Shown: positions 14,001 through 61,838 of the stretch, piece after piece
Layout of the letters: each line of letters begins with the position of its first letter
Numbering within the stretch: the first letter of the stretch is position 1
Source of the DNA: Paramacrobiotus metropolitanus
Lineage: Eukaryota; Tardigrada; Eutardigrada; Parachela; Macrobiotidae
Assembly (NCBI RefSeq): GCF_019649055.1
Contig: NW_026570221.1
Span: 1 to 64,000, forward strand
Direction: 5' to 3'
Length of the DNA: 64,000 nt
Program-made: the position numbers and the translations under genes
Notes under the pieces: model-generated
What the model was told of the DNA's origin: nothing
The model's database searches: none
Seen by the model: only the letters and a program-made list of their open reading frames with translations

Positions 14001-16322
14001 GTTAACTTTGCGAAATTTTGACTCAAGACGTCTGGTCGCTGACACTACGCCCCAAAAGAATTTGACTTGACTAATTTTCCGGATTTCTTAGGTTTTTTGG
14101 AAGGTTTTTATTAGGTTTTTTTAGGTTCTTCAAGTTTCTTAGGTTTCGTTTTCTTATTGTTCTTGGCCTTTTGCACTTGGTTGGTTTTCTTAGTCTTTTA
14201 TTAAGTTATTTTTGTGTTCCAGACAGTTTCAATAAGCTTGATAAGAAATTTGTTTGCTAAAAAGGACTTTTCGTCAAAACCGCCTCGCGGCGGAATGTAT
14301 CGGCGTCTACACGGCCTGGTCACGAAATGTCTTTCGGCGTGTTGTCCTTCCGACTTAATTATCCGCGACTAAGCCTCGCGCCTCGAGGATGACCATGCGG
14401 CAAAAGGTCTGCGACCTAAAGTCATGCGACTAGTTGTTCTCGGCGAAATGTCGCGCTGCCCAAAATACGAGGAAACTTACCTGTCTTTACGCTAGATATT
14501 AGCAGAGGCGATAGGTATAAGATCCATCAACCAGGCATACTGGCAATGAAAACGCAGGGACCAAATAGTCAAGGGATAAGTGAGAGCTAAAGGTTACCGT
14601 ATTACACTTCGAGACTATCAGAATATTAATATGGATAGTGCACGCCAGTGATTTGGAGGATAACCCGAGGCATAGACAGAAAAGGTCACCAGGAGCTCCT
14701 ATAGCTAAAGCCTCACTCGGAAGAGAGTACCAAAGCAAAACCGTCATGTTAAACACATCAGTGCAAGTCTCTAGTTGTGTAGTCGCGTTCAAAGTTCCTT
14801 GCCTGGGATTTTTCAGAAAACGTGACTGGAAGACGGATCATGACTTGAGTTGTCGACGTAGTATAGCCTTAACCGTAGAAGTAAAGACAATAGAAGTAGT
14901 TGTAGTATAGTAGTACGATGTGGACGGTTGCACACCAGTACACGAGTACACGGTAGACCAGTGCGCTGCCACCTGTTGCGTTTAATATTATTTTTATTCT
15001 GCTTCTTCTCCATTTAGTCAACCAAATTCTGGACGAGGCCAAAGAACGCGGCGGGGCCGGCACCATGTGTCTTCAGGGATATGGGCGTGGTCCAGACTTC
15101 CGGAGGTTTCCCTTGCCAGTGTTGCCGCCGCAGATGGTGATTATCCGAGCGCCCGAGGGCGGCAAACTGCTGGTGCACTGCAACAACACGAACGGCGCGC
15201 AGGTACAGTATGGTGACTGCCCACAGCGATCTGTAGTTTTTTGGTTTAGAGAAAATAGCGATAGTTCCGCATTAATCTATTTGTAGACAGAGCAATTTAG
15301 GCATACAATACATCAAACTATTGTGGGATGTAGAAATATTTTCTCAATATTATAAATGCTGAAATATATTATTTAATTTATTTATTATAAAATTAGATAA
15401 AATGTATCATAATTCGAAGCGCTAAAATTCTTTAACGCAAGAATTACACCAATTACGCAATGAAACTCTCACTAGTTCGATCAATTTTACAGCAGCTACT
15501 GTAAGTTATCCCTTTCCTGCTGATGTTTTAATTTGATCGCCGTAAGCTGTCCCGTATTCTCGTAATGCAGATTTTCTTTGCTCTAAGCATCCTAATATTG
15601 CTATTAGAAATGCTCAACTAATGCTTCTCTCCACGGTCAACGTTTCACAGGTTCCCCAAACAAAGATTCCACCGGCATTCACATACAACGGAAGGCTGGT
15701 TTCTCTGGCCAATCACACACTAGCCGGGATAGTGTCCCAGGAAGTGGTCCACTGTTGTAACGGTACCAGTCAGGAAGACTACGATAAACGGAACAGTTGG
15801 CGAGCAAGCGAATACCAGCGGACCACCGGTGCGTTTAGCATCGTCATGGAGGACTTCAATGACGGCCACAGCGGTGTGTACGAGTGTCTGCACTCCAACG
15901 GCAGCCAACTGGTGGTGACACAGCGTTACTGGGTCAGCGCCATCCGCACCTCCCTCAACCGCCACAACGTCTTCGATCAACCGATGCAGAACCTCACCGT
16001 CCGCAGCGGCCACCGGGCGAAGATGGTCTGCACCGTCCGCTTCAATTTTCTCCCCGGTTCCCTGTTCAACCGCTTCCTATGGCGCAGCAGAGGCCACCTG
16101 TTGATGGCAGAGTCCATGCCGCAGGTGGCCGATAAGACCTCGGCGTGGGAGGGTTTCAACGGGCGCGTCCGTGTAGGCTCTAATGCGCAGTCGCGCTGCC
16201 ATTCCATGCTGAGGATCAGCAGCGTCACGTGGCAAGATGCCGGCCTGTACGAGTGCTGGTTCCGCATCAACGACCGTCTGGACGAGTGGATCATGCAGGA
16301 AGCCTATCTGAACGTCATTTAA
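11062..16322 (+). CDS. Secreted two-Ig-domain protein, copy 2 (three exons)
   Basis: Predicted exons are 11062-11155, 15018-15202 and 15651-16322, about 316 residues. The intron phases (1, then 0) are the same as in copy 1. The signal peptide is MSHLLVLAVCLASCIPGSLA, followed by CAQKPKG. Exon 2 carries LQGYGRGPDFRR and the first Ig cysteine (LLVHCNNTN). Exon 3 has HSGVYEC closing domain 1, then KMVC and DAGLYEC for domain 2. A paired cysteine (VVHCCNGT) replaces the single extra one of copy 1. Intron 1 is ~3.9 kb, much longer than its counterparts, and contains repeat sequence. There is no membrane anchor. It is closest by eye to the copy at 39993. The function is unknown, extracellular binding being inferred only from the fold. 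Confidence 0.85.
12640..12725 (+). repeat. Possible 3' tail of a non-LTR or SINE-like element
   Basis: The string GAAAATAAATTCATTCATTC near 12700 is a short tandem ATTC tail after a TCGTGGGG stretch, as often left at the 3' end of non-LTR or SINE insertions. A similar AAATAAATTCATTC motif is at about 50413. No coding part is attached, so this is tentative. Confidence 0.25.
13850..14470. repeat. Repeat element with TTCGCCGC ends and CTTAGGTTT core
   Basis: The left side has CATTTCGCCGCAACTGAATTTCGCCGCGGGACATTTT and the right side ends with TCGGCGAAATGTCGCGCTG. The middle (14085-14160) is a degenerate run of TTAGGTTT/TTCTTAGG. The same kind of core occurs at 20150-20275, 33690-33745 and 39440-39480. 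It lies in the long first intron of Ig copy 2. It is probably a non-coding mobile element, class unknown. Confidence 0.45.
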
Positions 16323-20149: not shown

Positions 20150-20275
20150 GGAAACCTAAGAAACTTAGAAAAACCTAAGAAATCTAAGAAAACTAAGAAA
20201 CTTAAGAAACCTAAGAATTATAAGAAACCTAAGAATAACTTGAGAAAAATAGAAGAATAAGCACGAGAAAACAAT
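20150..20275 (+). repeat. Degenerate CCTAAGAAA tract
   Basis: About a dozen imperfect copies of an 8-10 bp unit (CCTAAGAAA, CTTAGAAAAA, CTAAGAAAA) run in tandem. The same tract type appears at 14085-14160 and 33690-33745 (opposite sense) and at 39440-39480. Confidence 0.65.
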
Positions 20276-33429: not shown

Positions 33430-33890
33430 ACCGGGAACAGCTAGGAGTGTGTCGTGAGGTTCGCCATGGGCGAATGCAAGACCTTGTGGCGGTGCCGGCG
33501 GGGTAGCCCGTTAATTCGCCAAGCGACAATTCGCTGACCGACATGGTGCTGACTTACACAACTCGCGAACCGGCAAAGCGTTGAACGGCAATTTGTTTTT
33601 CTGCTATGTTGTTGAACGTTTTGTCGAAACATTTTTGCTGACCGACAACTTGCTTTTCGGTTTGATACGTTGGTTTCGATACGTTTTCTTAACTTTCCGT
33701 TGTTTTTTCTTAGGTTTCTTAGTTTTCTTAGATTATTAAGGTTTTTCAAATCAAAAAAATGTCGTCAGCAAGTTGCTGGTGTTCACAAAAAGTCGTTCAG
33801 CGAGATTTTGTTCAGCAATTGGTCGTTTCAGCAATGTCGGGTCATCATTTCGTCGGTTAGCAAAAATTCTCCAGCGAGTTGTCGGTTTTC
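33430..33890. repeat. Repeat element with TTCGCC-type sequence and CTTAGGTTT core
   Basis: The stretch is full of short GCGACAATTCGCTGACCGAC-like phrases and their near-complements (GCTGACCGACAACTTGC, GTCGTTCAGCGAG, CAGCGAGTTGTCGG). A TTTCTTAGGTTTCTTAG core lies at 33700. It resembles the element at 13850-14470. Its right edge coincides with the break in the Ig pseudogene, so it probably truncated that gene. Confidence 0.45.
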
Positions 33891-34260
33891 GTCGTGGCGG
33901 ACGAGGGTGACGCTGAACCCAATAACGCTGCGGTACCACCATCTGCCTCCCGTTGGAGTGCAGGCACTCGTGCGGGTTTAGCATCAAACTGGAAAATTTC
34001 ATCATGTCATGGTGAAATTGTCCAATTCGATGGTAAAATACCACTAGTCCGATCGTAATTGTCCACACTGACCGTAAGCCGCTTGGCTTCTTCGCTCTCA
34101 CCGGTTTCCTTTACCATTTATGCAGTTACAATACCAACATTTTTAATCCAACTCGTGTTCTGAATATAGGTTCGATCAAAAACAATATTTTTGGGGCAAT
34201 ATCAACCGTGAACCGGGGTCCATTCCATGTAAACGCCGGTGGAATCTTGGTGTAGGAAAC
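33891..34260 (-). pseudogene. Broken third exon of a fifth Ig-family gene
   Basis: From 34260 downward the minus strand reads a CCAG acceptor and VSYTKIPPAFTWNGPRFTVD, matching the start of exon 3 in the other Ig genes. Further on come NYDRTSGI and ECLHSNGRQMVV..QRYWV. At least two single-base shifts separate these blocks, and the homology stops at 33891, in the middle of the linker between the Ig domains, where a repeat begins. Domain 2 is gone and no exons 1-2 are seen upstream, where the tyrosine-recombinase element begins 64 bp away. Confidence 0.75.
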
Positions 34261-34323
34261 CTGGAGAAATAAGCATAGAAGACGTCTTTGCTCTGTGAAC
34301 GTGAACACACATAACTACGCGCA

Positions 34324-34436
34324 ATAAACGCCAAGACTTCACTTTATTCAAGACACAACAAGAACACAACTTGGGGTATCAAAAGGGCACAGTAGTGCCG
34401 ACAAACAATACGGTGCGAAGCGCCCTAACGACGCCA
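34324..34436 (-). repeat. Split direct repeat B2
   Basis: This 113-bp copy of B is at the 3' end of the element. It matches 34650-34762 by eye (ATAAACGCCAAGACTTCAC ... AACGACGCCA). Confidence 0.93.
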
Positions 34437-34453
34437 CATGGGGGAAAAAAAAA

Positions 34454-34649
34454 TTTTCCGTAGCAAGCGGCTGGATCGCGCCAATAATGAGCCGGCTCGG
34501 CGAAGGTGACCGGCTTATATATGCGCGCTACCAAGCGGATGTGCAGATAGGCAAAGGGGCTTGGGGCAGGCTTCGCCACGCAGTGGCAGAGAGGCTACGC
34601 GTTCAGTGGGCGTTTATCAACAAATTTCACCAATAGTGAAATCTAACCC
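34454..34649 (-). repeat. Split direct repeat A2
   Basis: This 196-bp copy of A directly abuts B1 and matches 38889-39084 by eye. The B1/A2 junction should equal the junction formed when the element circularises. Confidence 0.93.
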
Positions 34650-34762
34650 ATAAACGCCAAGACTTCACTTTATTCAAGACACAACAAGAACACAACTTGG
34701 GGTATCAAAAGGGCACAGTAGTGCCGACAAACAATACGGTGCGAAGCGCCCTAACGACGCCA
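34650..34762 (-). repeat. Split direct repeat B1
   Basis: This 113-bp copy of B begins inside the 3' end of the recombinase gene: the last four codons and stop of that gene lie in the repeat. Confidence 0.93.
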
Positions 34763-35761
34763 AAATCCCTCCAAGTTGGACGCGACAGTTTTGGCGAAAC
34801 GGGAGCGGAGGTTAGAAGCGCGGTTAGCGTAACGCTCGAAGCAGTGGCTGGCCCAAGTTCCTTGGGCCTTTAATTCGTCAGTCGTTGCTCCCATGGCAGC
34901 GGCAAAGGTGGTGCCGCCCCTGCGGAAGCTGTGTAGGGAATAACCTTTGGAGCTGTAGCCGGCGGCCTTAAGCGTTCGTTTAAGGAAGTACTGAAACTTC
35001 CCTGCTGTTAGCGGCTTAACTTTTCCTCTTGCACTGACATGAGAAAAGGGGGAGGCGTGTGGATATGGGTTCAGCTTGTGCAAAACTGCCCGGACCGCTT
35101 GAACGGGGCACAGCGGTGAATCTTTAACCGTAGGTAACGGCAGTGTAACCGAACCGGCAGCGAAGACGCTTGTTTTGATGGCGGGAACGGTTATGTCAAG
35201 GCCGCTAGGCGTAAAACGTATACCGCTAACTCGCAAGAATTTAGAATTCTTGTGGAAAGGCAGCAGGTTGCTTTTTCGAAGCAACGAAAAGAAGGCGACC
35301 AGGGCGGCTGCCCAGAAGGGCTTGCGGAAGCACTTTGGAATGGTGGTTAGGCGACCTTGAATTTTACACAAAATCTCAGGCGTAATTGGAAGTCGGGCGT
35401 TGGGGGTTTGTGCTTTCGTACGTTTGATAGCGCGCAACGTCAGCTGTATGCGGAAGTGGGAAAGGTCGGGGGCTTCAAGTCCTTCGCGATGGTGCAATGA
35501 GACAACGCTGGCAAGGTAATTTTGCACAGAGGAATACTGCATTTTCGGCGAAAGATAGGCAATAAAGCGGCACAGCGTCTCAATGTTTGCGGGGCATGGG
35601 CGCGTTGAAATGCTTTTGCAGAAGCGCCGGTAAATCTTCCACTGGCTCTTTCTGGTGCGCAGCGAGGACGGTGCAAGTGAGGTTTTCCACAATTTCCGCA
35701 GCCGTTTGTCCAGTTCCTGCGTTCGGATACCTGTAAATAAAATCTCCAGGTAATTCAGCAA
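34751..35761 (-). CDS. Tyrosine recombinase of the retroelement
   Basis: This 336-residue frame cuts and rejoins DNA to integrate the circular cDNA, replacing the integrase of LTR elements. An N-terminal SAM-like core-binding region (about 25-120) contains TRKSQWKIYRRFC and IETLCRFIAYL. The catalytic domain follows: the first Arg in FFSLLRKSNLL (about 170), the H-x-x-R box in LHSFRRGGTTFA (about 280), the Trp in GTWASHCFERY, and the nucleophile Tyr in ERYAN. All residues expected of the R-H-R-(H/W)-Y set are present. The start overlaps the end of the RT frame by about 180 bp, so the true start may be a later methionine or need internal initiation or frameshifting. The stop codon lies in repeat B1. 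Confidence 0.92.
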   Translation of the reverse strand: MLNYLEILFTGIRTQELDKRLRKLWKTSLAPSSLRTRKSQWKIYRRFCKSISTRPCPANIETLCRFIAYLSPKMQYSSVQNYLASVVSLHHREGLEAPDLSHFRIQLTLRAIKRTKAQTPNARLPITPEILCKIQGRLTTIPKCFRKPFWAAALVAFFSLLRKSNLLPFHKNSKFLRVSGIRFTPSGLDITVPAIKTSVFAAGSVTLPLPTVKDSPLCPVQAVRAVLHKLNPYPHASPFSHVSARGKVKPLTAGKFQYFLKRTLKAAGYSSKGYSLHSFRRGGTTFAAAMGATTDELKAQGTWASHCFERYANRASNLRSRFAKTVASNLEGFWRR

Positions 35762-37613
35762 AGGCAGTGCGGCGTCCGGCCATAGCTAAGTCTAGTAAGC
35801 GCGGGTCAATGGTTGCGCGGCTTAAGGCGTCAGCTGCAATATTCTCCTTCCCAGGAAGATAGGAGGCTGATATGCGAAAATTGTAAGCGACTGAAGCATA
35901 AAATACGAGTTTCAGCCAACATAAGGCTGCTTTGCACTTCGTCGTAGCTCGATTTATAAAGGAAACTGTTTGCGTGTTGTCGGATTCAATAACAACTCGG
36001 AAGCCCGCCAGATGCGGCGCCCATACAAGCAGTGGCAAGCAGGCGGCAATTAGTTCGAGGAAATTGATGTTTCCTCTCAAGGCGTCCTCTAGTAACGGCG
36101 AGGTTAACCAGATAGAGGAGACAATCGCTGGCGGCAATACATTAGCCCAAGATCCGGCAATTGCACGGCGGCCCATTGTTGCACCAAAGCCGGCGAGACA
36201 AGCGTCTGTTTGGATGAACACCGATTTCCTGGGCGGGGAAATCAGTGACGGGCAAAGACCGTTTAAAGCAGGGGAGACATCGTGCCACCACTGCAGTTCT
36301 AACTTTAGACTCGACGTCAGGCGTGTGCGGTGGTTAGGGCGAGACAATGGTTTAAGGGCATCTATGAATATCCTCGCGAAAGGACGAGCACCGTAAATGG
36401 CTTTGGCGGCAAAGTTAAGGCGTCCAACCAGCTGCTGTAGTTCCTTCTTTGTGGCTTTATTGCGGCTAAGCAAAACACCAGTTTCCGTGCGGAGGTTCTG
36501 GAGTTTCTCTGGCGGTAGCTCAATGGTCAACGACACGGAGTCGAGGATGACGCCCAAGAATCGGATGCGAGTTGTTGCGGAAATAACTTTTTCCCAGTTT
36601 ATGGCAAGGCCCAGATCTGTTAGAGTAGCTATTAAGCAACTCAAGGCGGCGGTGCATAGGTCAGCTGTCTCTCCTATAACAAGGAAGTCGTCCAGGTAGC
36701 ACACAATCTTGTAACCTTTCAGGCGAATAAAGCGCGCAACTGCTGAAGATAAGCGGAAGAAAATGAACGGAGCTATCGAGAGTCCAAAGCACAGGAAGTT
36801 GTCGATAAAATAAGTTTCGGGTTGTTCGTCGAAATTCCAAGCGAAGCCCTGCAGCTGGCGATGCGGTGGGAAGACTGGCACATGGCGGTAAGCAGACTTG
36901 ATATCGACCAGGGCGTAATGGCAGGCGTAGCTGCTTAGCGCAAGGGCGTCGTCAATAGATTGTAGGGAAAATTTTTCGGGAAAAATATGCGAATTCAAAC
37001 TGTCCGAGAATGGGCGGCTACAGTCTGTGATAGGGCGGAACTTCTCAGAATCGGCTTTTTGGACTGCACCAATTGCATGCACGCGCTTAGGCTTACTATG
37101 GGAATAGGAAATTTTCCCCTCGGCGATCTCGCTGCGGAACAGTGTGTCCAGAAATGGTTTAGCTTGTGCCGTAAGTGCGCTGGAGTAGTTGTGGCATTCT
37201 GCTGAAGCTATTTGTTCGGCATTTTCTACCAGTTTAAAACCGAAGGCAAGACCACGTAAAATGAAATCTCTATCCTGATCAAAACGCAGAGCCGTATTCC
37301 AGTTATTAATTTTTCTTGTTAAAGAACAACGATGGTAAAGGTCGGCATCAACTTGAAAGTTCCCCACATGCAACATTTTCATAATAACCACTGCTAAATA
37401 CGCGATTTCAAAACGTACATTTTCCTTGCTGTTATACGCGATTTCAAAGGGAAACAGGTCAGTTAACCAAAAGCACGTACAGTGACATGGGCATATAAAA
37501 GAGCGAATTCGACGAAAGTATGTCAGATAACAATGGTGATTATCATGCTGGTTACTGTTAGAGGGAAAAATAACCGACCGTTGCGGATGCAGGTTGCTTC
37601 TCGGAATGGACAA
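35580..37613 (-). CDS. Reverse transcriptase-RNase H of the retroelement
   Basis: This ~677-residue frame copies the element's RNA to DNA. The reverse transcriptase spans about 160-400: FRPITDCSRPFSDSLN, then ALVDIKSAYRHV (first catalytic Asp), GLSIAPFIF, and the YLDD box in VCYLDDFLVIG (two catalytic Asp). Downstream an RNase H fold is visible, with FIQTDACLAGFGA (Asp), FLELIAA (Glu), VIESDN (Asp) and NIAADALSR (final Asp). The order RT then RNase H without a methyltransferase-type domain fits Ngaro/PAT rather than DIRS1. The frame starts 21 bp after the gag stop. The first ~75 residues are low-complexity and may not be translated; a start near residue 78 (MKMLHVGN) is possible. Confidence 0.9.
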   Translation of the reverse strand: MSIPRSNLHPQRSVIFPSNSNQHDNHHCYLTYFRRIRSFICPCHCTCFWLTDLFPFEIAYNSKENVRFEIAYLAVVIMKMLHVGNFQVDADLYHRCSLTRKINNWNTALRFDQDRDFILRGLAFGFKLVENAEQIASAECHNYSSALTAQAKPFLDTLFRSEIAEGKISYSHSKPKRVHAIGAVQKADSEKFRPITDCSRPFSDSLNSHIFPEKFSLQSIDDALALSSYACHYALVDIKSAYRHVPVFPPHRQLQGFAWNFDEQPETYFIDNFLCFGLSIAPFIFFRLSSAVARFIRLKGYKIVCYLDDFLVIGETADLCTAALSCLIATLTDLGLAINWEKVISATTRIRFLGVILDSVSLTIELPPEKLQNLRTETGVLLSRNKATKKELQQLVGRLNFAAKAIYGARPFARIFIDALKPLSRPNHRTRLTSSLKLELQWWHDVSPALNGLCPSLISPPRKSVFIQTDACLAGFGATMGRRAIAGSWANVLPPAIVSSIWLTSPLLEDALRGNINFLELIAACLPLLVWAPHLAGFRVVIESDNTQTVSFINRATTKCKAALCWLKLVFYASVAYNFRISASYLPGKENIAADALSRATIDPRLLDLAMAGRRTAFAELPGDFIYRYPNAGTGQTAAEIVENLTCTVLAAHQKEPVEDLPALLQKHFNAPMPRKH

Positions 37614-37634
37614 TGGGCAGGCAGGCTAAGTGGG

Positions 37635-38810
37635 TCAAGCGGTTCCGTTATTGCGACGCAATTGGGGGCAGTTAATGCGGCCATGTCCTGTTTGGTTGCA
37701 CTTGTAGCAAATATGGCGGTAGTTGCACCCGGCACACGATCCATTGTTAAAACGGCCACAAATTGGGGGCGGATTGCCGGCATTACGCGTGCTTCCGCTG
37801 GAAGTTGCGGCGGCGAAGGCGGTAGGCTTCCCTGCGGCGATTACCATGGCGTTCTGGCAGGCGGTCTGGGAATTAAAGTGGCTTGAGGCAATATTTTCAC
37901 GCTCGATGGCATTATCCAGGTTCCACTTGTGGTCCTTAGCACGAATGCGGAAGTCGTGATCGAACGCCAGAATAGCGCGGGCATAGTAGTGGCGGCGTTT
38001 TTGGGCTAAGTACTCCAGGTAGCTGCAGTACTCTAAGGCGACTTTGGCATGCTTCGGGCTGGAGGACTGCAGCAGGGTCTTCAGCGTCTCCATGCTTCCG
38101 GCCCAGAACTCGTCTAAATTGATATCAAATGCGCCGATTTTGCTTTTGGACTTGCCGTTGGCTCCAAGGCGGGCTTGAGCAAAAACATGCGTATGTGGGC
38201 GGCGCAGGCGGCGGGCTTCCGACTTCAAGATTTTATCGGACTTACCACTGGAGGCGCTAGAGGTGCTAGACGCGGAGCTGGACGAGGAGGAAGACGAACT
38301 ACGGGAGGATTCCGAGGCGCTGGAGCGCGAAGCTGAGCGGGAGCGGCGTGGCTTCTTTGCTTTGACCTCCTTTGCGCCAGAATCCAGCAGCACGTTGCGC
38401 TTATGGCCGGCATGGCTGGTGACCTTTAGCGTAGTTGTGGGAGAGCCTTGCTGGGACGCTTGGAACTGCTTAATGCGGGAACGGTCGCCGATCTTCTGCA
38501 CGATTTGCTCCACTTCGGCGTGGGTGAGGAGGACCAGGTGGTGGCTTTCCGTGATATTCTCCTCCTCCAAGGCCTCAATAGTTTCTTTGCTCAGGCCAAG
38601 GCCAGACAGCGTTGGTAGAGCTGGCTGCGGTTGGGGCTCCGGCAGGGCGGGCGGAGGCGGAGTGGGCTGATGAGAATCCAGCTTGAAGTGGGCTATCAAG
38701 CGGTCGGCAAGGGTGCTGTTCCTGCCTGTAACGGAAAGTTTAGCGGCCTGGCATTCGCTTTTCAAAGCCGATTTGGTCATGGCTCTAATTTCGGCGGCCG
38801 TAAGTACCAT
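37635..38810 (-). CDS. Gag-like protein with SAP motif and zinc knuckle
   Basis: This 391-residue frame is the first gene of the tyrosine-recombinase element and probably binds its RNA/DNA. Residues 10-45 match the SAP pattern (LKSECQAAKLSVTGRNSTLA..L), a short DNA-binding helix pair. Residues about 70-115 (LSKETIEALEEENI..SHHLVLL) look like a SAM-type helical bundle. A serine-rich basic linker (about 150-200) follows, typical of nuclear localisation regions. The C-terminus has two Cys clusters, CGRFNNGSCAGCNYRHIC and the knuckle CYKCNQTGHGRINC (C-X2-C-X4-H-X4-C). The start lies about 80 bp inside repeat A1. The frame is intact. Confidence 0.88.
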   Translation of the reverse strand: MVLTAAEIRAMTKSALKSECQAAKLSVTGRNSTLADRLIAHFKLDSHQPTPPPPALPEPQPQPALPTLSGLGLSKETIEALEEENITESHHLVLLTHAEVEQIVQKIGDRSRIKQFQASQQGSPTTTLKVTSHAGHKRNVLLDSGAKEVKAKKPRRSRSASRSSASESSRSSSSSSSSSASSTSSASSGKSDKILKSEARRLRRPHTHVFAQARLGANGKSKSKIGAFDINLDEFWAGSMETLKTLLQSSSPKHAKVALEYCSYLEYLAQKRRHYYARAILAFDHDFRIRAKDHKWNLDNAIERENIASSHFNSQTACQNAMVIAAGKPTAFAAATSSGSTRNAGNPPPICGRFNNGSCAGCNYRHICYKCNQTGHGRINCPQLRRNNGTA

Positions 38811-38888
38811 GGTGCAGGGTGTGTCAGGCAGTTATGTTAAAGGGCAACTCTAATTTTTCCGTAGCAAAAGGGCAAAAAAAAAAATTTT

Positions 38889-39084
38889 TTTTCCGTAGCA
38901 AGCGGCTGGATCGCGCCAATAATGAGCCGGCTCGGCGAAGGTGACCGGCTTATATATGCGCGCTACCAAGCGGATGTGCAGATAGGCAAAGGGGCTTGGG
39001 GCAGGCTTCGCCACGCAGTGGCAGAGAGGCTACGCGTTCAGTGGGCGTTTATCAACAAATTTCACCAATAGTGAAATCTAACCC
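38889..39084 (-). repeat. Split direct repeat A1
   Basis: This 196-bp copy of A forms the 5' terminus of the element. Beside it, a partial echo (TTTTTCCGTAGCAAAAGGGC near 38855) precedes the A-rich stretch. Confidence 0.93.
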
Positions 39085-39992
39085 GATACACAGCTTACAA
39101 CAGTTGCATAAAGACTTGTTTACGACGGTGAATGCTGCTGTATGCAAACGTGACTACACGTCTGAACAACATCTTCAGCGTGAACTAGCATACAACAGCC
39201 GATGCCTCCCGACATGAAATGGCACCAAGGTTCTCAATTCAATCTACAACAGTGTACGGACGTTTCTTGTATAATGTTTCAACACGCAGCTCCACGAAAT
39301 TACTTACCAGTTCGCCACTGTTTTTCACGGATTAGGTATATTAGGAGAGCGTTTTACACTTATCATAACTATATCCCATTTGCTCGCCAAAGCTAAAAAA
39401 CTTTTGTACGTGGGCGTCGATTAAAATATTTGGGAAAAGAAGAGAACCTAAGAAACCTAAGAAAACCTGAGAATCCCCCGTGGAAGCATCGGTCGCGAAC
39501 GAATGCAGCCATTTCTAGTTTTTGGTCTGAGCGAGTCGGCGCTGCTGGACTGTGACTAGCCGAAAAGTGACAGGGCGCAGGCCGAGTGGGGGCGTGGTCA
39601 GCCTTAAGGGCGTTTCGGGCGCCGCCGCGCCACCCCAAATGGCGAAGCTTTTTCCTTTGTTACAGATTTTTTCCCTGTTGATTACCAAATTTTATTCCTT
39701 CTAACGCATATACAGCAAGGAAACTGCGCACGAGAATTAGCAGCGCTAATTTAGCTAAAGACGAAACGTGTGGCTTATGTGATAGCGTGTAAACCGACAG
39801 CAACTTCAAATTTTTCTGTGGTTTTTTCCTTATATATTGATAGAGCTTAATCGTTTTTCGTGATGAGAACTGAAAAAGGGTGAAATCTTTGTTCTCCGGT
39901 TTTGGAGAAACAGAGATTAAGTTTGCCAGCAAAGTGATTTTCATGGGACTACAGTAAACTCTGATAGAAATCGCGGGATAATCCGTTACCAA
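39085..39992. other. Upstream flank of Ig copy 3
   Basis: 39440-39480 carries a short CCTAAGAAACCTAAGAAAAC tract. The remainder shows no exon. The block conserved upstream of Ig copies 1 and 2 is not clearly present here. Confidence 0.45.
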
Positions 39993-41866
39993 ATGGGTCA
40001 TCTTCTCGTCGTGGCTTTCGTGGCTGTCTGCTTGGCCCGCTGCATTCCAGGCAGTCGCGCCTGCGCCCAGACGCCGAAGGGAGCCGTGGAAACACGTGAG
40101 TCACTGTACAATTTCGGCAGGTTAGGCGTAATTTTTCCAAAATTTGCATTTAGGGGAAACTGATGCATTTAGAGGGTAATTGTGCTTTTTTGCGCTAAGC
40201 TGGTGAGCAAAAATCTGAGAGAAAATGAAAAATCTTCCTACAATCTTAAAAAGCATGGCTATTTTCATTAAGGTCGTAAAATGAAATGCTAACTGTGAAC
40301 AAATTTCAAGTTGAAAACGGGCGGCCCATTATAGCTCCCGATTTTCCCGCCCGCTACCGCGCCGAGTAGGGAGTTTGTTTCCGTTTCTTAAATAACTTTG
40401 AAATTCTCAAAATTTATTCAGAAATTTGAAAGCCATGAAGAAAATGCGGTTTCGTGTCAAAACATTCTGCTTGTACAAATGTGCGAAGAAAACCTGAACG
40501 AGATCGACCCATAATGAGACTTTTGGCAAGTGCAGTTTGTTGCGGTTAAACTCTTGCAATGTCGTTTTACCCACAACTTCCCAACTGGAGGTTGCGCGCA
40601 CAAACGGGTTCCACAAAAAGTGTCTGGGAGTGCGCGAAAAGGTGCGTTTTTTGTGTACTCTGTATATTCACCAATCTGGTAGCACGTTTCGGGTCGCTTC
40701 CCTTCTCTTAAGGAGCATGCAGCTGCCACATGTGCGCTTAATAATTTTTATTCTGCTTCTTCTCCCTATAGTCAACCCCATTCTGGACGAGGCGAAAGAA
40801 CGCGGCGGCACCGGCACCATGCGTCTTCAGGGATATGGGCGTGGTCCAGACTTCCGGAGGTTCCCCTTGCCAGTGCTGCCGCCGCAGATGCAGATCATCC
40901 GAGCGCCCGAGGGCGGCACACTGCTGGTGTACTGCAACAACACGAACGGCGCGCAGGTACAGTATGACGACTGCCACCGCGATCAGTAGAAGTAGTCTTT
41001 TGGTAGTAGTAGATCAATTTTCTAGCAGGAAAATTATTTCTTTCCTGCCGGTCTTTCAATTCGATTGCCGCCAGCTGTCTCATGTTAATCCTAGGACTGC
41101 AAACTTTCTTTGCTCTAATCATCTGAATAGCTAATATCGCTATCACAAATGTTCAATGAATGCTTGCCTGAACTGACAACATTCACAGGTTCCCCAAACA
41201 CAGATTCCACCGGCATTCACGTACAACGGAAGGCTGGTTTCTCTGGCCAATCCCACACTAGCCTGGATAGATTCCCCGTCCCGGGAATTGACTCACTGTT
41301 GTAACGGCACGAATCGTGAAAACTTCATGGCATGGAACAGTTGGCGGGCCAGCGAATACCAGCGGGCCACCGGTGCGTTCACCATCGTACTGGAACGTTT
41401 CAATGACGGCCACAGCGGTATGTACGAGTGCCTGCACTCCAACGGCAGCCAGCTGGTGGTGACACAGCGTTACTGGGTCAGCGCCACCCGCACCGCCCTC
41501 AACCGCCACTACGTCTTCGATCCACCGATGCAGAACCTCACCGTCCACTACGGCGATTACACGAAGATGGTCTGCCCCGTCCGCTTCAATTTCCTCCCCG
41601 GACCCCTGGAAGACCGCGTTCTGTGGCGCAGCAGAGGCCACATATTGAGAGCTGATTCCATGCCGCATTTTGCCGGTAAGACCTCGGCGTGGGAGGGCTT
41701 CAACGGGTACGTCCATTTCGGCTTTACTGGGAAGTCGCGCTGCCATTCCACGTTGACGATCGACAGCGTCACGTGGGAAGATGCCGGCCTGTACGAGTGC
41801 TGGTTCCGCATCAACGATCGTCTCGACGAGTGGATTATGCAGGAAGCATACCTGCACGTCATTTAA
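39993..41866 (+). CDS. Secreted two-Ig-domain protein, copy 3 (three exons)
   Basis: Exons 39993-40095, 40772-40956 and 41189-41866 give about 321 residues with the family's phase-1 and phase-0 introns. The signal peptide is VVAFVAVCLARCIPGSRA-like, followed by CAQTPKG. Exon 2 (LQGYGRGPDFRRFPLPVLPP, then LLVYCNNTN) is very close to that of copy 2. In exon 3, HSGMYEC closes domain 1, and KMVC with DAGLYEC form domain 2. HCCNGT is shared with copy 2. No membrane anchor is seen. Intron 1 is only ~0.68 kb, against ~3.9 kb in copy 2, and contains a repeat fragment. The closeness to copy 2 suggests the most recent duplication in the cluster. The partner or ligand is unknown. Confidence 0.87.
40390..40690. 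mobile_element. Diverged MITE fragment in intron 1 of Ig copy 3
   Basis: GGGAGTGCGCGAAAAGGTGC, GGTTGCGCGCACAAACGGGT and CATAATGAGACTTTTGG recall the arms of the TTAA MITE family at 8142-8811. The ends are not preserved. Confidence 0.4.
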
Positions 41867-44862: not shown

Positions 44863-45802
44863 TTAAACGACGATCAGATAGGCTTCCTGCATGATCCACT
44901 CGTCGAAAACATCGTTGATGCGCAACCAGCACTCGTACCGCCCGGCGTCTTCCCACGTGACGCGGTGGATCTTCATCGTTGAAGTGCATCGACCTTCCTC
45001 ATCGATGAAGAAACGAAAACTCCCACCGAATCCTTGCCTCCATTTGGCCTTATCAGCGACTTCTGGGATGGATTCGGCGATTAGCCGGTGGTGTTCGCTG
45101 CGCCACAGGAATCTGGTGGTCAGTTCTCCGGGAAGGAAATTGAAGCGGACGGCGCAGACCAACACCGCCGGGTCGCCGTTGCGGACCGTTACGTTCTGCA
45201 TGGGCGGATGGAAGACGTTGTTGCGGAAGAGGATCGCGCTAACCCCGTAAAGCTGCGTCACCACCGGTTGGCTGCCATTGGAGTGCAGGCACTTGTACAG
45301 GCCGCTGTGGGCGTAGGTGAAGTTCTTTAATGCGATGGTAAACGCACCGCTGGCCACATCGTAGTTCTCTATACTCATCCTGTGCGACACAAGTCTTCCC
45401 TGGTTACCAATTGTGTTTATGCCGTTACAGTGAGAATATTTTTCATTCCACTGGGATTCATCGTTAACCAGTTTATGGTCATCGTTAACCGTGGCTTGGA
45501 GTTTTTTTCCATTGTATACGAACTCCGGTGGACTCCGGGTGTGGGAAACCTGTGAGTGAACCAGAACACATGGACTGATGGCAATGTCCTAATGTCTCGG
45601 TAGGTTGTGCATTAACATACCAGGTTGTTGGTGTTGTTGCAAGGAAGGAAAAGCGTGCCGCCTTCAGGCGCTCGAATCAGCTGCGTCTGCGGCGGCCATT
45701 CCGTGGTTGGGTAGCCTGCCACCGACGGACCTCTCCCGAAGCCCCGCAGATTCATCGTGCCGTTGCCGTTGCGCTGCTTCGCTTCGTTCAGAATCTTTTC
45801 CA
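44863..45802 (-). CDS. Two-Ig-domain protein, copy 4, signal exon not found
   Basis: Exon 3 (45549-44863) and exon 2 (45802-45621) are open and have the family's splice edges (TTTTTTAG|TGG, CTG|GTATGT, CACAG|GTT). Exon 2 carries LRGFGRGPSVAGYPTTEW and LFLPCNNTN; exon 3 has HSGLYKC, VLVC and DAGRYEC. It is closest to copy 1 (same 182-nt exon 2, GPSVAGYPTTEW, MSIENY/ISAENY). Domain 1 has Lys before its second Cys (LYKC) where the others have Glu. No exon 1 is recognisable in the several kb upstream, where a repeat cluster begins 37 bp from exon 2. The gene may have lost its signal exon, use a distant one, or be an early pseudogene with intact frames. Confidence 0.72.
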
Positions 45803-47964: not shown

Positions 47965-49535
47965 ATGGACAGGATAGTACACGATAAATTTTTCAGCACA
48001 CTTTCTAACGGATGTATCCATAGTATCCCACAGTATGCGTACGTATGCCACCTGTATCCCGTAAGCGACATTTCTGTATCCCTACCGTTCACTTTAGAGA
48101 CCCCGCTGTACCCGCTCCGTATCCCACAGTATGCGTACGTATGCCACCTGTATCCGTAAGCGACATTTCTGAATCCCTACCGTTCACTTTAGAGACCCCG
48201 CTGTACCCGCCCCGTATCCCACAGTATGCGTACGTATGCCACCTGTATCCCGTAAGCGACATTTCTGAATCCCTACCGTTCACTTTAGAGACCCGCTGTA
48301 CCTGCCCGTATCCACAGTATGCGTGCGTATGCCACCTGTATCCCGTAAGCGACATTTCTGTATCCCTACCGTTCACTTTAAACACCCGCTGTACCCGCTC
48401 CGTATCCCACAGTATGCGTACGTATGCCACCTGTATCCTGTAAGCGACATTTCTGTATCCCTACCGTTCACTTTAGAGACCCCGCTGTACCCGCCCCGTA
48501 TCCCACAGTATGCGTACGTATGCCACCTGTATCCGGTAAGCGACCTTTATGTATCCCTACCGTTCACTTTAGAGACCCCGCTGTACCCGCCCCGTATCCC
48601 ACAGTATGCGTACGTATGCCACCTGTATCCGTAAGCGACCTTTCTGTATCCCTACCGTTCACTTTAAACACCCGCTGTACCCGCTCCGTATCCCACAGTA
48701 TGCGTACGTATGCCACCTGTATCCGGTAAGCGAACTTTATGTATCCCTACCGTTCACTTTAGACACCCCGCTGTACCCGCTCCGTATCCCACAGTATGCG
48801 CACGTATGCCATCTGTATCCCGTAAGCGACCTTTATGTATCCCTACCGTTCACTTTAGAGACCAGCTGTACCCGCTCCGTATCCCACAGTATGCGTGCGT
48901 ATGCCACCTGTATCCTGTAAGCGACATTTCTGTATCCCTACCGTTCACTTTAGAGACCCGCTGTACCCGCTCCGTATCCCACAGTATGCGTACCTATGCC
49001 ACCTGTATCCCGTAAGCGACCTTTATGTATCCCTACCGTTCACTTTAGAGACCCGCTGTACCCGCTCCGTATCCCACAGTATGCGTACGTATGCCACCTG
49101 TATCCCGTAAGCGAACTTTATGTATCCCTACCGTTAACTTTAGAGACCTCGCTGTACCCGCTCCGTATCCCACAGTATGCGTACGTATGCCACCTGTATC
49201 CCGTAAGCGACATTTCTGTATCCCTACCGTTCACTTTAGAGACCCGCTGTACCCGCTCCGTATCCCACAGTATGCGTACGTATGCCACCTGTATCCCGTA
49301 AGCGACCTTTATGTATCCCTACCGTTCACTTTAGGGACCTCGCTGTACCCGCTCCGTATCCCACAGTATGCGTACGTATGCCACCTGTATCCCGTAAGCG
49401 ACCTTTATGTATCCCTACCGTTCACTTTAGAGACCCGCTGTACCCGCTCCGTATCCCACAGTATGCGTACGTATGCCACTTGTGTTCCGTAAGCGACCTT
49501 TAAGTATCCCGTCCGTTCGTTTAAAGGGCCCGCTG
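47965..49535 (+). repeat. 95-bp minisatellite, ~16 copies
   Basis: The unit includes TATCCCACAGTATGCGTACG, TATGCCACCTGTATCC, GTAAGCGAC.TTTATGTATCC and CCGTTCACTTTAGAGACC. Copies vary by one or two bases in length, so the open frames within it shift and are not genes. The left flank (AAATTTTTCAGCACACTTTC, TAACGGATGTATCCATAG) also flanks the inverted copy at 62200-62770. Confidence 0.92.
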
Positions 49536-49964
49536 TACCCACTCATTGTCACACAGTGTACATACGGGCTTCAGGTGTTTCTTAGTACCTTTACTGCTTC
49601 CTAATTCCCGGCTAGACTTTGACTCGGTAATGACTATGTATTCGATAGCAAGCTGGAGTGATCCTGGTTTGTTCGGTATTCAGATTTCTAGTTTCCCTGT
49701 TGCACATTTAAATGCCCCCTTTGTGGCGTAACTCCATCCTATGGTATGTGTAGTGTATGCCATAGCAACACTCTAGATGTTGTCTTCTGTATTATTAATT
49801 GCTCAGTTGAGTAGCGCGCTGAAAGCCTAAATAAATAAATCGTATTAGCGAACACGACAGTATGATTTACAAGAAACAGCCTCGGCTTCGCCTCCGCGTT
49901 TCTTGTGGTCAACGGCCACTTTATTTAGTTCTCAGTGAATATTTATTAAAATAACATATTTCGT

Positions 49965-53001: not shown

Positions 53002-53189
53002 TGCAGTGCAAAGGCGGTTCTTGTCGGCTGGGCTCTTTTTGCTAAACGAATGGAAGTGAAACGGTTTTATATGCTAAATAAGTCTTATTGAAAAGGGAAT
53101 ACAGTTACTGTATAAAAAACGGGTTAAACCGAAATTCTTCTGTTACAAAACGCTTAAAAGCGTGGACAAATAATGCGTAACCTTCGGTT

Positions 53190-56100
53190 ACCAAAGGTTT
53201 AAAAGAGCGGGTGCCACACGCGTGGCCTTCGGTGACCAAAGGCTCAAAAAGGCGGGTACGGCACGCGTGGCCTTCGGCGACCAAAAGCTCAAAAAGGCGG
53301 GAACCGCACGCGTGGCCCTCGGTGACCAAAGGATCAAAAAAGCGGGTGCCACACGCGTGGCCTTCGGTGACCAAAGGCTCAAAAAGGCGGGTACGGCACG
53401 CGTGGCCTTCGGCGACCAAAAGCTCAAAAAGGCGGGTACCGCACGCGTGGCCCTCGGTGACCAAAGGATCAAAAAAGCGGGTACCAAACGCGTGGCCTTC
53501 GGTGACCAAAGGCTCAAAAAGGCGGGTACCGCGCGCGTGGCCTTCGGTGACCAAAGGCTCAAAAAGGCGGGTACCGCACGCGTGGCCTTCGGTGACCAAA
53601 AGCTCAAAAAAGCGGGTACCGCACGCGTGGCTTTCGGTGACCAAAAGCTCAAAAAAACGGGTACCGCACGTGGTGCCTTCGGTGACCAAAGGCTCAAAAA
53701 GGTGGGTACCACACGCGTGGCCTTGGTGACCAAAGGCTCAAAAAGGCGGGTACCGCACGCGGTGCCCTCGGTGACCAAAAGCTCAAAAAGGCGGGTACCG
53801 CGCGCATGGCCTTCGGTGACCAAAGGTTTAAAAAGGCGGGTACCGCACGCGTGGCCTTCGGTCACCAACGGCTCGAAAAGGCGGGTGCCGCACGCGTGGT
53901 CCTCGGTGAGCAAAGGCTCAAAAAGGCGAGTACCGCACGCGTGGCCTTCGGTGACCAAAAGCTTAAAAAAGCGGGTACCGCACGCGTGGCCTTCGGTGAC
54001 CAAAGGCTCGAAAAGGCGGGTACCACACGCGTGGCCTTCGTTAACCAAAGGCTCAAAAAAGCGGGTACCGCACGCGAGGCCTTCGGTGACCAAAGGCTCA
54101 AAAAGGCGGGTACCACACGCGTGGCCTTCGTTAACCAAAGGCTCAAAAAAGCGGGTACCGCACGCGAGGCCTTCGGTGACCAAAGGCTCAAAAAGGCGGG
54201 TACCACACCCGTGGCCTTCGGTCACCAACGGCTTAAAAAGGCGGGTACCGCACGCGTGGCCTTCGGTCACCAACGGCTTAAAAAGGCGGGTACCGCACGC
54301 GTGGCCTTCAGTGACCAAAGGCTCAAAAAGGCGGGTACCGCGCGCGTGGTCTTCGGTGACCAAAGGTTTAAAAAGGCGGGTACCGCACGCGTGGCCGTCG
54401 GTCACCAACGGCTCAAAAAGGCGGGTACCGCACGCGTGGCCCTCGGTGAGCAAAGGCTCAAAAACGCGTGTACCGCACGCGTGGCCTTCGGTGACCAAAA
54501 TCTTAAAAGGCGGGTACGGCACGTGTGACCTTCGGTTACCAAAGGCTCGAAAAGGCGGGTACCACACGCGTGGCCATCGGTAACCAAAGGCTCAAAAAGG
54601 CGGGTACCGCGCGCGTGGCCTTCGGTGACCAAAGGTTTAAAAAGGCGGGTACCGCACGCGTGGCCTTCGGTGAGCAAAGGCTCAAAAACGCGTGTGCCGC
54701 ACGCGTGGCCTTCGGTGACCAAAAGCTTAAAAAGGCGGGTACGGCACGTGTGACCTTCGGTGACCAAAGGTTTAAAAAGGCGGGTACCGCACGCGTGGCC
54801 TTCGGTCACCAACGGCTCAAAAAGGCGGGTACCGCACGCGTGGCCCTCGGTGAGCAAAGGCTCAAAAAGGCGGGTACCGCACGCGTGGCCTTCGGTGACC
54901 AAAAGCTCAAAAGGCGGGTACCGCACGCGTGGCCCTCGGTGAGCAAAGGCTCAAAAAGGCGGGTACCGCACGCGTGGCCTTCGGTGACCAAAAGCTCAAA
55001 AAAGCGGGTACCGCACGCGTGGCTTTCGGTGACCAAAAGCTCAAAAAAACGGGTACCGCACGTGGTGCCTTCGGTGACCAAAGGCTCAAAAAGGTGGGTA
55101 CCACACGCGTAGCCTTGGTGACCAAAGGCTCAAAAAGGCGGGTACCGCACGCGGTGCCCTCGGTGACCAAAAGCTCAAAAAGGCGGGTACCGCGCGCATG
55201 GCCTTCGGTGACCAAAGGTTTAAAAAGGCGGGTACCGCACGCGTGGCCTTCGGTCACCAACGGCTCGAAAAGGCGGGTGCCGCACGTGGTCCTCGGTGAG
55301 CAAAGGCTCAAAAAGGCGAGTACCGCACGCGTGGCCTTCGGTGACCAAAAGCTTAAAAAGCGGGTACCGCACGCGTGGCCTTCGGTGACCAAAGGCTCGA
55401 AAAGGCGGGTACCACACGCGTGGCCTTCGTTAACCAAAGGCTCAAAAAAGCGGGTACCGCACGCGAGGCCTTCGGTGACCAAAGGCTCAAAAAGGCGGGT
55501 ACCACACGCGTGGCCTTCGTTAACCAAAGGCTCAAAAAAGCGGGTACCGCACGCGAGGCCTTCGGTGACCAAAGGCTCAAAAAGGCGGGTACCACACCCG
55601 TGGCCTTCGGTCACCAACGGCTTAAAAAGGCGGGTACCGCACGCGTGGCCTTCGGTCACTAACGGCTTAAAAAGGCGGGTACCGCACGCGTGGCCTTCAG
55701 TGACCAAAGGCTCAAAAAGGCGGGTACCGCGCGCGTGGTCTTCGGTGACCAAAGGTTTAAAAAGGCGGGTACCGCACGCGTGGCCGTCGGTCACCAACGG
55801 CTCAAAAAGGCGGGTACCGCACGCGTGGCCCTCGGTGAGCAAAGGCTCAAAAACGCGTGTACCGCACGCGTGATCTTCGGTGACCAAAATCTTAAAAAGG
55901 CGGGTACGGCACGTGTGACCTTCGGTTACCAAAGGCTCGAAAAGGCGGGTACCACACGCGTGGCCATCGGTAACCAAAGGCTCAAAAAGGCGGGTACCGC
56001 GCGTGGCCTTCGGTGACCAAAGGTTTAAAAGGCGGGTACCGCACGCGTGGCCTTCGGTGAGCAAAGGCTCAAAAACGCGTGTGCCGCACGCGTGGCCTTC

Positions 56101-56390
56101 GGTGACCAAAAGCTTAAAAAGGCGGGTACGGCACGTGTGACCTTCGGTGACCAAAGGTTTAAAAAGGCGGGTACCGCACGCGTGGCCTTCGGTCACCAAC
56201 GGCTCAAAAAGGCGGGTACCGCACGCGTGGCCCTCGGTGAGCAAAGGCTCAAAAAGGCGGGTACCGCACGCGTGGCCTTCGGTGACCAAAAGCTTAAAAA
56301 GGCGGGTACCGCACGCGTGGCTTTCGGTGAGCAAAGGCTTAAAAGGGCAGGTAAAGCACGGGGGGCTTTCGGTTACTAAACGCTTAAAAG
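53190..56390. repeat. 45-bp satellite array (~70 units) with higher-order duplication
   Basis: The unit reads CGGGTACCGCACGCGTGGCC, then TTCGGTGACCAAAGGCTC, then AAAAAGG. Variants of the same order recur ~1.39 kb apart: the rare ACGGGTACCGCACGTGGTGCC unit at about 53655 and 55045, and the GTGTGCCGCACGCG unit at about 54690 and 56077. This shows a ~1.4 kb block was itself duplicated. Because 45 is a multiple of 3, long frames stay open on both strands (15-residue repeats such as FGDQRLKKAGTARVA or LVTEGHACGTRLFEP). Single-base indels break every frame and there is no start or splice context. I treat it as non-coding satellite. Confidence 0.9.
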
Positions 56391-56701
56391 GTGGGACCGC
56401 AAGGTTTGTTAAAGTAATTAAAGTTATCAGGTTTGTTAACTATGGTTTTGAAGCTTAGTAAGGAGTAAAGATAGATAAGGTTGGGATCCGGTTTATCAGG
56501 CGAAGGTTTTCACAGGTAATAGAAATAAGTTTCGGATACTCAGCAAGGACAAAGGCGTAAAAGCACAGGGTTAAGGGGCTGCAAAAGCCTAAAAGTTGCT
56601 AGGCGGGTTCCGGCCAATCAGAAACGTAAGGTTTTTTCTGGCCAATCAGAAGGTTTTGGAGGCAGGAGCGTCACGGAATCACGGTTCTGCTTTAATATAT
56701 A
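56391..56701. other. Edge of satellite and spacer
   Basis: The last units decay (GGGGGCTTTCGGTTACTAAACG). There are two GGCCAATCAGAA boxes near 56612 and 56640. No gene is visible. Confidence 0.4.
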
Positions 56702-58511
56702 GGATTGCACTTGCTGCATTTCTGACACGCTGAGTTGCGTTTACACTGCTTGCATCGTCCGGGCTTGCATTTTTTCTGGATGTGGCCACAACTGTCGTAG
56801 CGGGCCGCATCGGAAATTGGAGTGGACGGTCCAGTTGCAGTAGTGATCGGCGGCGCATCACACATCAGCAATTCTTCAACCAGCTGCGAAAAAAACTCAA
56901 TTTGTGTGAGTTTGCCTCCTACCTTACCATGAACTCGCCATGCCGCAACCGCGATCATGGCAATGGATTTTGAAAAAAAAGGCCACCACCACTTTTGGAA
57001 CTCAGCGTCGGCCGGAAGTTACCGGTCACAAAGGTCAACACCTTCCATATGTTTATTATAGTTGGCAATCATCCGCGGCTGGTCAATTAAAACCTTCTTC
57101 GCGGCGCGACTCCATCGCTTTGCCTTTCCAAGAGGTGTAACGGTATCGTAGTTGGACGCGAGGCATACTGCGGTGTTGTCATGCCACTTCACAGCAATCA
57201 CATTGGCCGTACAATAGGCAGCGTGGCTACCACGTTAAGTTTTTTTAAATTTCTTGTTGTCCGGAAACCGAGCGCTCGAAATTCTAAAACCGAGCGCTCG
57301 AAATTCCTCCAAAAGCGCATAGGACGTAAAGAAATTAGCGAAAAACACGCAGTGTGCAACTGGACACTTGACCACAGACAACAATTTCAAAACGACTCGA
57401 GATCCAAGCGGCTTCGTTAAATCGGCAACATCCTTGCCCGTAGCGTCTTTTCCGGTGTACGCGAAAAATGTGTACGGATATCCCCGTGATCCACACAGCA
57501 CCCAAAGCATGTACTCGAACCGGCATGGTTTGCCTCTCATGAACATTTTGCAAGAATGGTGCCCGAAATAAGGAATCATTTGTTCATCAGCGCGAAGAAA
57601 TGGATCAAAAATCCCGAACTGAAGAAGTCTTTCCTTCAGAAGAGTGAAGAAGGGGTTAACTTTGGCCATTTTCTCGTCCGGATCCAAATGGTCGTTGTCG
57701 GCCAGATGGAAATATTTTTTAATTTTCTAAAAATAAAATAAAATTATTAATGCCAACCGCTCAGGGTGTCGATGAACAAATGCGTTTTTTGATGGGTTCC
57801 TGCAACCGGAAGTACGTGCCGTATGTTTCATGTCCGAAGCGACAAGACCTTATCCTGATTCCGCAATAAAAAAATACTACTTATATTGCACCCGCCCCAG
57901 GTGACGGCAAGACTGCACCAAAACATAATTTATTTGCACTTGCTCACCTCGAATCGTTTACATGACATCTTGGATGAAACGGCAGGAAAGCTGAACAATA
58001 CGGAGCGCATCCAGAAGTGTCTCGTAGTAGGCAGCTACACAATTCCGCTGCACAAGAGTATCTGGATGAACAAAAAAAGATCACGCATGGGAAGCTGGAA
58101 ATCAGCGTTGTGCTTTCTGGCGTATCGTTCGGATTCCGTAATAATATGAGTCGCTACAATATCATCAAAATATATCTTATAAAGTTCCAAAGGTGTCTTG
58201 CTGATCAGCTCTGGATGTTCGTTTGCGAGCTTCCTCGGCATTTCTCCAGTGTGCTCTGGAAATGACACGAAAGCGCTCTCGTCACGCTTCCAGTCTACTT
58301 CCGGCCGGAGGAGGACGCCTTTCTTTCGCTTTGGAGCTGGACCGTCTTCGGCCTCTGAATCAGTCTCGTAGCAAACGTCGAGATCTCCAGCCACATCTTT
58401 GGGCATTTGCGGTCTCAGATCATTTTCATCAATATCCTCTGTATCCGAGCACACACCAGGTTCCGGTGGAAGACAAACGATGTCAATCTCCCGGTGTGGT
58501 CTGTTTGTCAA
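56702..58511 (-). pseudogene. Dead piggyBac transposase
   Basis: On the minus strand the parts appear in order. An acidic N-terminus (58511-58036) contains SDTEDIDEND and the ILLCSGIV segment. A short exon follows to a CGAG|GTGAGC donor at 57948, and an acceptor at 57726 leads to FHLADNDHLDPDEKM. The DDE core FLRADEQMIPYFGHHSCK has its first Asp. The second acidic motif reads CVFFANFFTSY, with Ala where the catalytic Asp (..DNFFTS) belongs. KWHDNTAVCLAS and YNKHMEGVDLCDR follow. The C-terminus is the cysteine-rich zinc domain (CKQCKRNSACQKCSKC). There is a stop just after GIV, another after DLCDR, and a deletion between NKKFKKT and YCTANVIAV. Transposase of the PGBD type; inactive on several counts. 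Confidence 0.85.
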
Positions 58512-61432: not shown

Positions 61433-61486
61433 CGTATACCAGAACAGGAAAAACTCTTAGAAGAGTTTTTCCTGTTCTGGTATACG
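61433..61486. repeat. Perfect 26-bp hairpin
   Basis: CGTATACCAGAACAGGAAAA-ACTCTT (61433-61458) is followed by AG and then its exact reverse complement (61461-61486). Perfect arms with a 2-nt loop suggest a very recent fold-back event. A weaker CGAGAAG symmetry lies outside. Confidence 0.85.
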
Positions 61487-61630
61487 ACGCTTCTCGGGCA
61501 ATTTCAATTCTTCCAAAAACAATGGAATCAGTTATTACATTTTGAAAATTCACAGTACAAAACACCAGATATTTTGGTTTAAGAACACACAAAGATTTTT
61601 TGTCTTATTAAGATGCGCAGCAGAACCATT

Positions 61631-61800
61631 TACTTTGTATGCCAGAAATAAGCGAAAATTGATCTGTCGGTCCGCGCTCGTGCATAAAATCAGCGTACTT
61701 ACCATCTCGTATATATATATATATATATTATATATATATACGAGATGGTAAATACGCTGATTTTATACACAACGTATAAAATCAGCGTATTTACCATCTC

Positions 61801-61838
<38 letters not shown>

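Follow-up and report, generated by a model that had tools for sequence, protein, structure and literature searches.

We describe a retrotransposon copy in the tardigrade Paramacrobiotus metropolitanus that is very probably an autonomous, near-intact Ngaro-type element of the order DIRS. The copy spans 4,761 base pairs (bp) at positions 34324-39084, on the minus strand, of a 64,000-nucleotide (nt) stretch of contig NW_026570221.1, hereafter the window. It is a well-preserved example of a known, uncommon kind of element rather than a new kind, and it carries two small oddities: a SAP motif in its gag protein and a palindrome at the joint between two of its repeats. A first-pass annotation had already called it a tyrosine-recombinase retrotransposon with split direct repeats, leaving its strand and its place within the order unstated, and the repeats, an alignment of its reverse transcriptase (RT) and RNase H with Ty3, and alignments of its recombinase with bacterial enzymes all agree with that identity. 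Intact copies of recombinase-type retrotransposons are few, as the annotation had also held; PMC4157794 classified 207 intact elements among 2,539 matches in 46 genomes.

Architecture of the element

Read along its coding strand, the element runs A1, gag, RT-RNase H, recombinase, B1, A2, eight bases and B2. Its features, including three open reading frames (ORFs), are as follows.

38880-39084, minus strand: A1, the 5' split direct repeat, which starts GGGTTAG beside host TATC, with a TATA box at 38956 and TCATTA at 38925
37635-38810, minus strand: ORF1, a gag-like protein of 391 amino acids (open reading frame)
38685-38786, minus strand: SAP motif, gag residues 9-42 (Pfam PF02037)
37668-37709, minus strand: CCHC zinc knuckle in gag, CYKCNQTGHGRINC (scored by Pfam at 16.7 bits, under its cut-off of 20.8)
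35580-37625, minus strand: ORF2, RT-RNase H, 681 codons stop to stop (Pfam RVT_1, Ty3 alignment)
34751-35785, minus strand: ORF3, tyrosine recombinase, 344 codons stop to stop, with R170, K204, H285, R288 and Y319 (tblastn, alignment, PHROGs)
34650-34762, minus strand: B1 repeat, with AATAAA at 34674
34609-34658, no strand assigned: nested inverted repeat over the joint of B1 and A2 (DNA and RNA folding, pattern control)
34445-34649, minus strand: A2 repeat, with a TATA box at 34521
34324-34436, minus strand: B2, the 3' terminal repeat, with AATAAA at 34348

The A and B pairs, previously matched by eye, hold up to base-by-base comparison. The B pair (34324-34436 with 34650-34762; 113 nt, 100%) is identical at 113/113 bases. 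In the A pair (38880-39084 with 34445-34649; 205 nt, 98%), the first 196 nt are identical and the sole difference beyond them is the length of an A/T tract.

These repeats contain sequences that resemble promoter and poly(A) signals. Along the coding strand of the element, TATATAA is confined to A1 and A2, each time with TCATTA 31 nt further on. The AATAAA motifs of B1 and B2 each end 19 nt short of the B end, and a third AATAAA lies in the element body at 36461. Rfam at gathering scores returned 0 matches. Host DNA abuts the element with TATC on its left side and TGCGCG on its right, and shows no target duplication in this copy.

The element is richer in G+C than the remainder of the window (51.7% versus 45.5%). 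No second copy was found in the window: blastn at E≤1e-3 recovered nothing beyond the element itself and its repeats, and tblastn reached an E value of 0.086 at best elsewhere. None of the three ORF lengths is due to chance, as the longest ORF among 300 simulated sequences with the element's dinucleotide make-up is 277 codons.

Reverse transcriptase and tyrosine recombinase

ORF2 matches Pfam RVT_1 at 1.5e-17, and its residues 209-605 align with Ty3 RT-RNase H. The alignment places YLDD (36687-36698) on the YLDD of Ty3. In the RNase H part, QTDA, FLEL, ESDN and AADAL fall opposite acidic residues of Ty3 RNase H that are presumably the catalytic ones. RNase H is recognised through this alignment alone, with no Pfam RNase H match. 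Single-protein scans of viral_contigs and genome_contigs found no RT relatives, and a single plasmid record among 72,556 matched the RT at E≤0.01, a Wolbachia reverse transcriptase covering 16% of the query.

ORF3 resembles bacterial tyrosine recombinases. By tblastn, 428 of the 72,556 plasmid records matched at E≤10, the best among the 20 listed at 3e-11. R170, K204, H285, R288 and Y319, which we take to be the catalytic residues of the tyrosine recombinase family, are invariant in an alignment of ORF3 with six bacterial sequences drawn from those 20, one of which matches Cre at 2e-8. The catalytic residues that the first-pass annotation had reported for RT, RNase H and recombinase are thus all recovered. 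ORF3 also matches the integrase family phrog_1 of PHROGs at 5.1e-4 and, at E≤10, 3 of 50,697 phage records (best 2e-3). Pfam scans of the element's proteins gave no match to DDE integrase families. AlphaFold 2 (AF2), run without an alignment, gave no usable model of the recombinase (mean pLDDT 40.5).

Recombinases on bacterial plasmids (for example Marinobacter WP_236079023.1) share the recombinase region and the catalytic residues with ORF3 at 22-25% identity, but have no RT among their annotated neighbours in stretches of 1.6-1.8 kb. A single-protein scan of viral_contigs with the recombinase found no relatives, and scanning with the recombinase alignment yielded 27 loci. When gag and RT were compared by tblastn with 33 recombinase loci (27 viral and 6 plasmid), two matches appeared at E≤1 (0.44 and 0.60), so no related RT or gag was found beside those recombinases within the DNA examined.

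A gag protein with a SAP motif

The gag ORF extends stop to stop over 37635-38831 on the minus strand, with its first ATG at 38810. Near its N terminus lies the SAP motif noticed in the first pass, which Pfam PF02037 supports above its curated cut-off (25.7 bits against 23.9, E 8.4e-6). A search of this segment against PDB listed a single sequence at E≤10, the myocardin-like protein MKL1 (E 1.5); the matched chain is presumably the SAP domain of MKL1. SAP domains fold as a helix-linker-helix. AF2 without an alignment modelled the segment as one helix, residues 5-42 (pLDDT 78.6, pTM 0.42).

The rest of gag includes a serine-rich stretch and the C-terminal CCHC knuckle, with another Cys/His cluster immediately upstream of the knuckle at 37713-37760. 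Against PDB, the top match of the whole protein is low-complexity (lipovitellin, 0.023) and the next is a retroviral zinc finger (0.69). A single-protein scan of viral_contigs found no gag relatives.

The SAP motif is a point of difference from described Ngaro-type elements: a term search of the main texts of PMC9210276, PMC6681497, PMC8547959 and PMC3783388 did not turn up the word SAP; nor was it found in those of PMC3266345 and PMC3212892, the latter on Crypton. Among the papers listed, none concerned a SAP domain in such an element, in a search whose scope excluded most subscription-journal papers and which is no proof of novelty; the 'SAP motif' papers among the matches listed concern retroviral budding motifs and similar. 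In Cafeteria Ngaros, ORF1 has been connected with the preference for integration sites (PMC8547959), and a DNA-binding motif in ORF1 therefore deserves a test.

Assignment to Ngaro

Published structural criteria would make the element Ngaro-type, rather than DIRS1 or classical PAT. It has split direct repeats in the order A1...B1A2B2, with the internal block after the recombinase; an RT with linked RNase H; and, instead of a DDE integrase, a tyrosine recombinase with HxxR and a catalytic Tyr. Ngaro elements are defined as A1-ORFs-B1A2B2 without a methyltransferase in PMC4157794 and in passages of PMC9210276, PMC3783388 and PMC8547959. Here, the RT and recombinase frames gave no Dam match at E≤10 in Pfam (HMMER filters drop most matches above 0.1), gag gave none at E≤0.1, and the last RNase H motif starts (35837) only 163 nt before the recombinase alignment (35674). 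Together, the missing methyltransferase and the little room left for one point to Ngaro.

Xenopus DIRS-53_XT and Cafeteria Ngaro types 1-4 share with it the arrangement A1-[gag, RT/RNase H, recombinase]-B1A2B2 and lack a methyltransferase; unlike the Xenopus Ngaro, our element shows no SGNH hydrolase match in its three ORFs. DIRS1-like elements share gag, RT-RNase H and recombinase, as well as overlapping RT and recombinase frames, but the terminal repeats here are direct, without the inverted terminal repeats and internal complementary region of that group, and no methyltransferase was found. PMC4157794 reports Ngaro in most animal phyla examined, and it is also listed in PMC11071193, which curated two tardigrade genomes.

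An inverted repeat at the joint of B and A

The joint of B1 and A2 lies within a nested inverted repeat, with 9-bp outer arms GGCGTTTAT/ATAAACGCC and 7-bp inner arms ATTTCAC/GTGAAAT. We consider it a candidate recombinase site, and regard a recombinase site and an RNA structure as about equally likely. The alternative, to which we give an even chance, is that it arose by chance or is a structure formed in the RNA or at the poly(A) site.

The 71-nt stretch around the joint folds well both as DNA (z -5.54) and as RNA (z -5.26), with 0/200 shuffles as stable in each case, and a poly(A) signal lies just upstream; the RNA result and the nearby signal favour the alternative. So does the raw RNA energy, which is unexceptional: among 71-nt segments taken every 37 bases on both strands outside the three tandem arrays, 70 of 3,154 are at least as stable. 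The 9-bp arms alone, at a gap of 10-40, have 106 matches in the 64 kb, and the pattern was spotted first and tested afterwards. Two observations speak for a recombinase site instead. On the B side, the outer arm coincides exactly with the final 9 bases of B, and the nested 9/7 pattern recurs in the window only at starts 61433-61801, a stretch of 36% G+C with TA runs. Among the matches listed in a literature search, judged by their listing, nothing was found on a joint hairpin in such repeats.

Reading frames and competing explanations

The coding layout is less tidy than the domain content. gag and RT share one frame, with a TGA and a TAG between them, and the RT frame has its first ATG at codon 82 (37382). 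Relative to RT, the recombinase frame is +1; its first ATG, also codon 82 (35542), falls within the N-terminal region alignable with Cre and the bacterial recombinases. A splice from a gag donor at 38245 to an acceptor before 35730, both phase 1, would join gag and recombinase in phase; this is only an idea, and the acceptor ranks eighth in the element.

Several points weigh against the Ngaro assignment and the cycle we propose below. No integrase model of Pfam, PF00589 included, or of NCBIfam matches the recombinase, whose direct similarity to Cre is weak (E 0.025). The placement itself is by structure, and PMC4157794 counts methyltransferase loss and split-repeat gain among the changes that arose more than once. 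RT and recombinase have ~200 nt of open frame in common (35580-35785), and a passage of PMC3266345 states that ORF overlap is not usual for Ngaro elements. As RT has no ATG near its frame start and the recombinase has none before its N-terminal domain, an unproven expression step would be required, and generic splice-site scores are no better than in simulation (best donor 66/300, best acceptor 101/300). Lastly, the left flank ends TATC and the joint reads TTTAT, so common crossover bases are not definable from one copy.

Given the recurrent changes described in PMC4157794, and a Pat1 lineage that lacks the methyltransferase, the element could descend from PAT. It would then be a Pat1-type element of the echinoderm form that lost its methyltransferase and is Ngaro in looks only, which we think unlikely. 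Split direct repeats and a CCHC knuckle in gag are common to both, the knuckle (here with a Pfam score below cut-off) being, within PAT, a feature of Pat1 according to PMC4157794; the same paper takes a C. briggsae 'Ngaro' lineage as Pat1 without methyltransferase, and the frame overlap that PMC3266345 calls unusual would fit such an origin too. Unlike Pat1, however, the element has no detectable methyltransferase domain. PMC4157794 treats both zinc finger and repeat type as homoplasious, which makes the knuckle weak evidence, and passages of PMC9210276 show that the ORFs of Xenopus Ngaro overlap as well.

A second alternative concerns condition rather than ancestry. The copy might be freshly inserted yet defective, moving only with help, with the stops between gag and RT and the missing recombinase start as its lesions. 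We doubt this explanation, since no stop lies inside any domain of the three ORFs, and frameshifted or overlapping ORFs occur in the order, according to passages of PMC3783388 and PMC9210276. Set beside the statement in PMC3266345, these descriptions suggest that the layout is not decay per se, nor a perfect fit. The first-pass annotation had described all three frames as open and the element as apparently intact. Both descriptions stand for the domains, which are uninterrupted, and for the near-identical repeats; they are qualified by the TGA and TAG between gag and RT and by the lack of early ATG codons in the RT and recombinase frames.

A possible replication cycle

We infer a replication cycle for this Ngaro-type element from its observed repeats, domains, conserved catalytic motifs, promoter- and poly(A)-like signals and joint inverted repeat. 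Transcription would start at the A1 TATA box, giving RNA that lacks the initial ~160 nt of A. RNAs ending at the B1 poly(A) signal would serve as messengers, and those reading through to B2 as genomic template. Because only A2 can supply the A start missing from the RNA, the template would have to read through B1. The RT would then copy this template, with the internal B1-A2 block restoring the A1 start and joining B to A, to yield a circle whose joint equals that of B1 and A2.

The tyrosine recombinase would recombine the circle joint with a host site and leave no target-site duplication. The joint inverted repeat may be its binding site, and the SAP-bearing gag may help bring the complex to chromatin. 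The cycle predicts that an empty site would carry TGTGTATC directly before TGCGCGTAG, without a duplication but perhaps slightly altered where the two meet.

The TATA box in A and the AATAAA in B agree with the published replication model. According to passages of PMC6681497, it follows from the reverse-transcription model for Ngaro and PAT that a newly inserted element has near-identical copies of A, and likewise of B. The near-identical pairs observed here would therefore point to a recent insertion; the copy was probably inserted recently, and its activity is possible.

Genomic setting

Next to the element, at about 33893-34275, is a degenerate copy from a local immunoglobulin (Ig)-domain gene family. 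Homology to this copy begins 48 nt away from the element, which has the same orientation and apparently sits in an intron. Related Ig-domain genes form a dispersed cluster at 2463-3500, 15546-16322, 41177-41866 (+) and 44863-45588 (-), recognised by Pfam Ig/V-set matches for the three copies scanned and by DNA similarity for the fourth.

An empty-site search compared the local Ig-gene paralogues with the element's two flanks joined. With homology starting 48 nt off one side and, at E≤1e-3, only a 41-nt match to paralogue surroundings ~1.16 kb off the other (the remaining matches look like repeats), nothing aligns across the joint and the empty site is unreadable locally.

Outside the element, a short inverted pair of the CCTAAGAAA type flanks it at 33705-33725 and 39445-39465; the same repeat also forms an array at 20151-20251, and the pair is probably a dispersed simple repeat. 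One 95-96 bp satellite occurs in two arrays of opposite orientation, ~92% alike, at 48023-49544 and 62246-62746. A 45-bp minisatellite of ~72 copies occupies 53181-56401; as its unit is a multiple of three, it produces long open frames on both strands that are gene-like but need not be genes. The window also holds, at 4766-5794 (-), a gag-type ORF of a different retroelement, in which Retrotrans_gag and CCHC domains are recognised, and a partial transposase at 57235-57726 (-) that matches DDE_Tnp_1_7 at 8.9e-23 and that we take to be piggyBac-like.

Implications

To our knowledge, how recombinase-type retrotransposons choose their sites and avoid excising themselves is poorly known. This copy combines near-identical repeats with two testable handles on these questions, the palindrome at the joint of B and A and the SAP motif in gag.

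A one-way scheme would tie the two together, though we regard it as a long shot. The recombinase site would be the joint palindrome, split at the chromosomal ends, where the B-side arm lies at the B2 end and the rest at the A1 start; it would be intact only at the joint of B1 and A2 and on the reverse-transcribed circle. SAP-gag, or a spliced fusion of SAP and recombinase, would tether the complex to chromatin. If this is true, the chromosomal ends would be poor substrates and insertion would run mostly in one direction, while an old copy could take up new circles at its internal joint.

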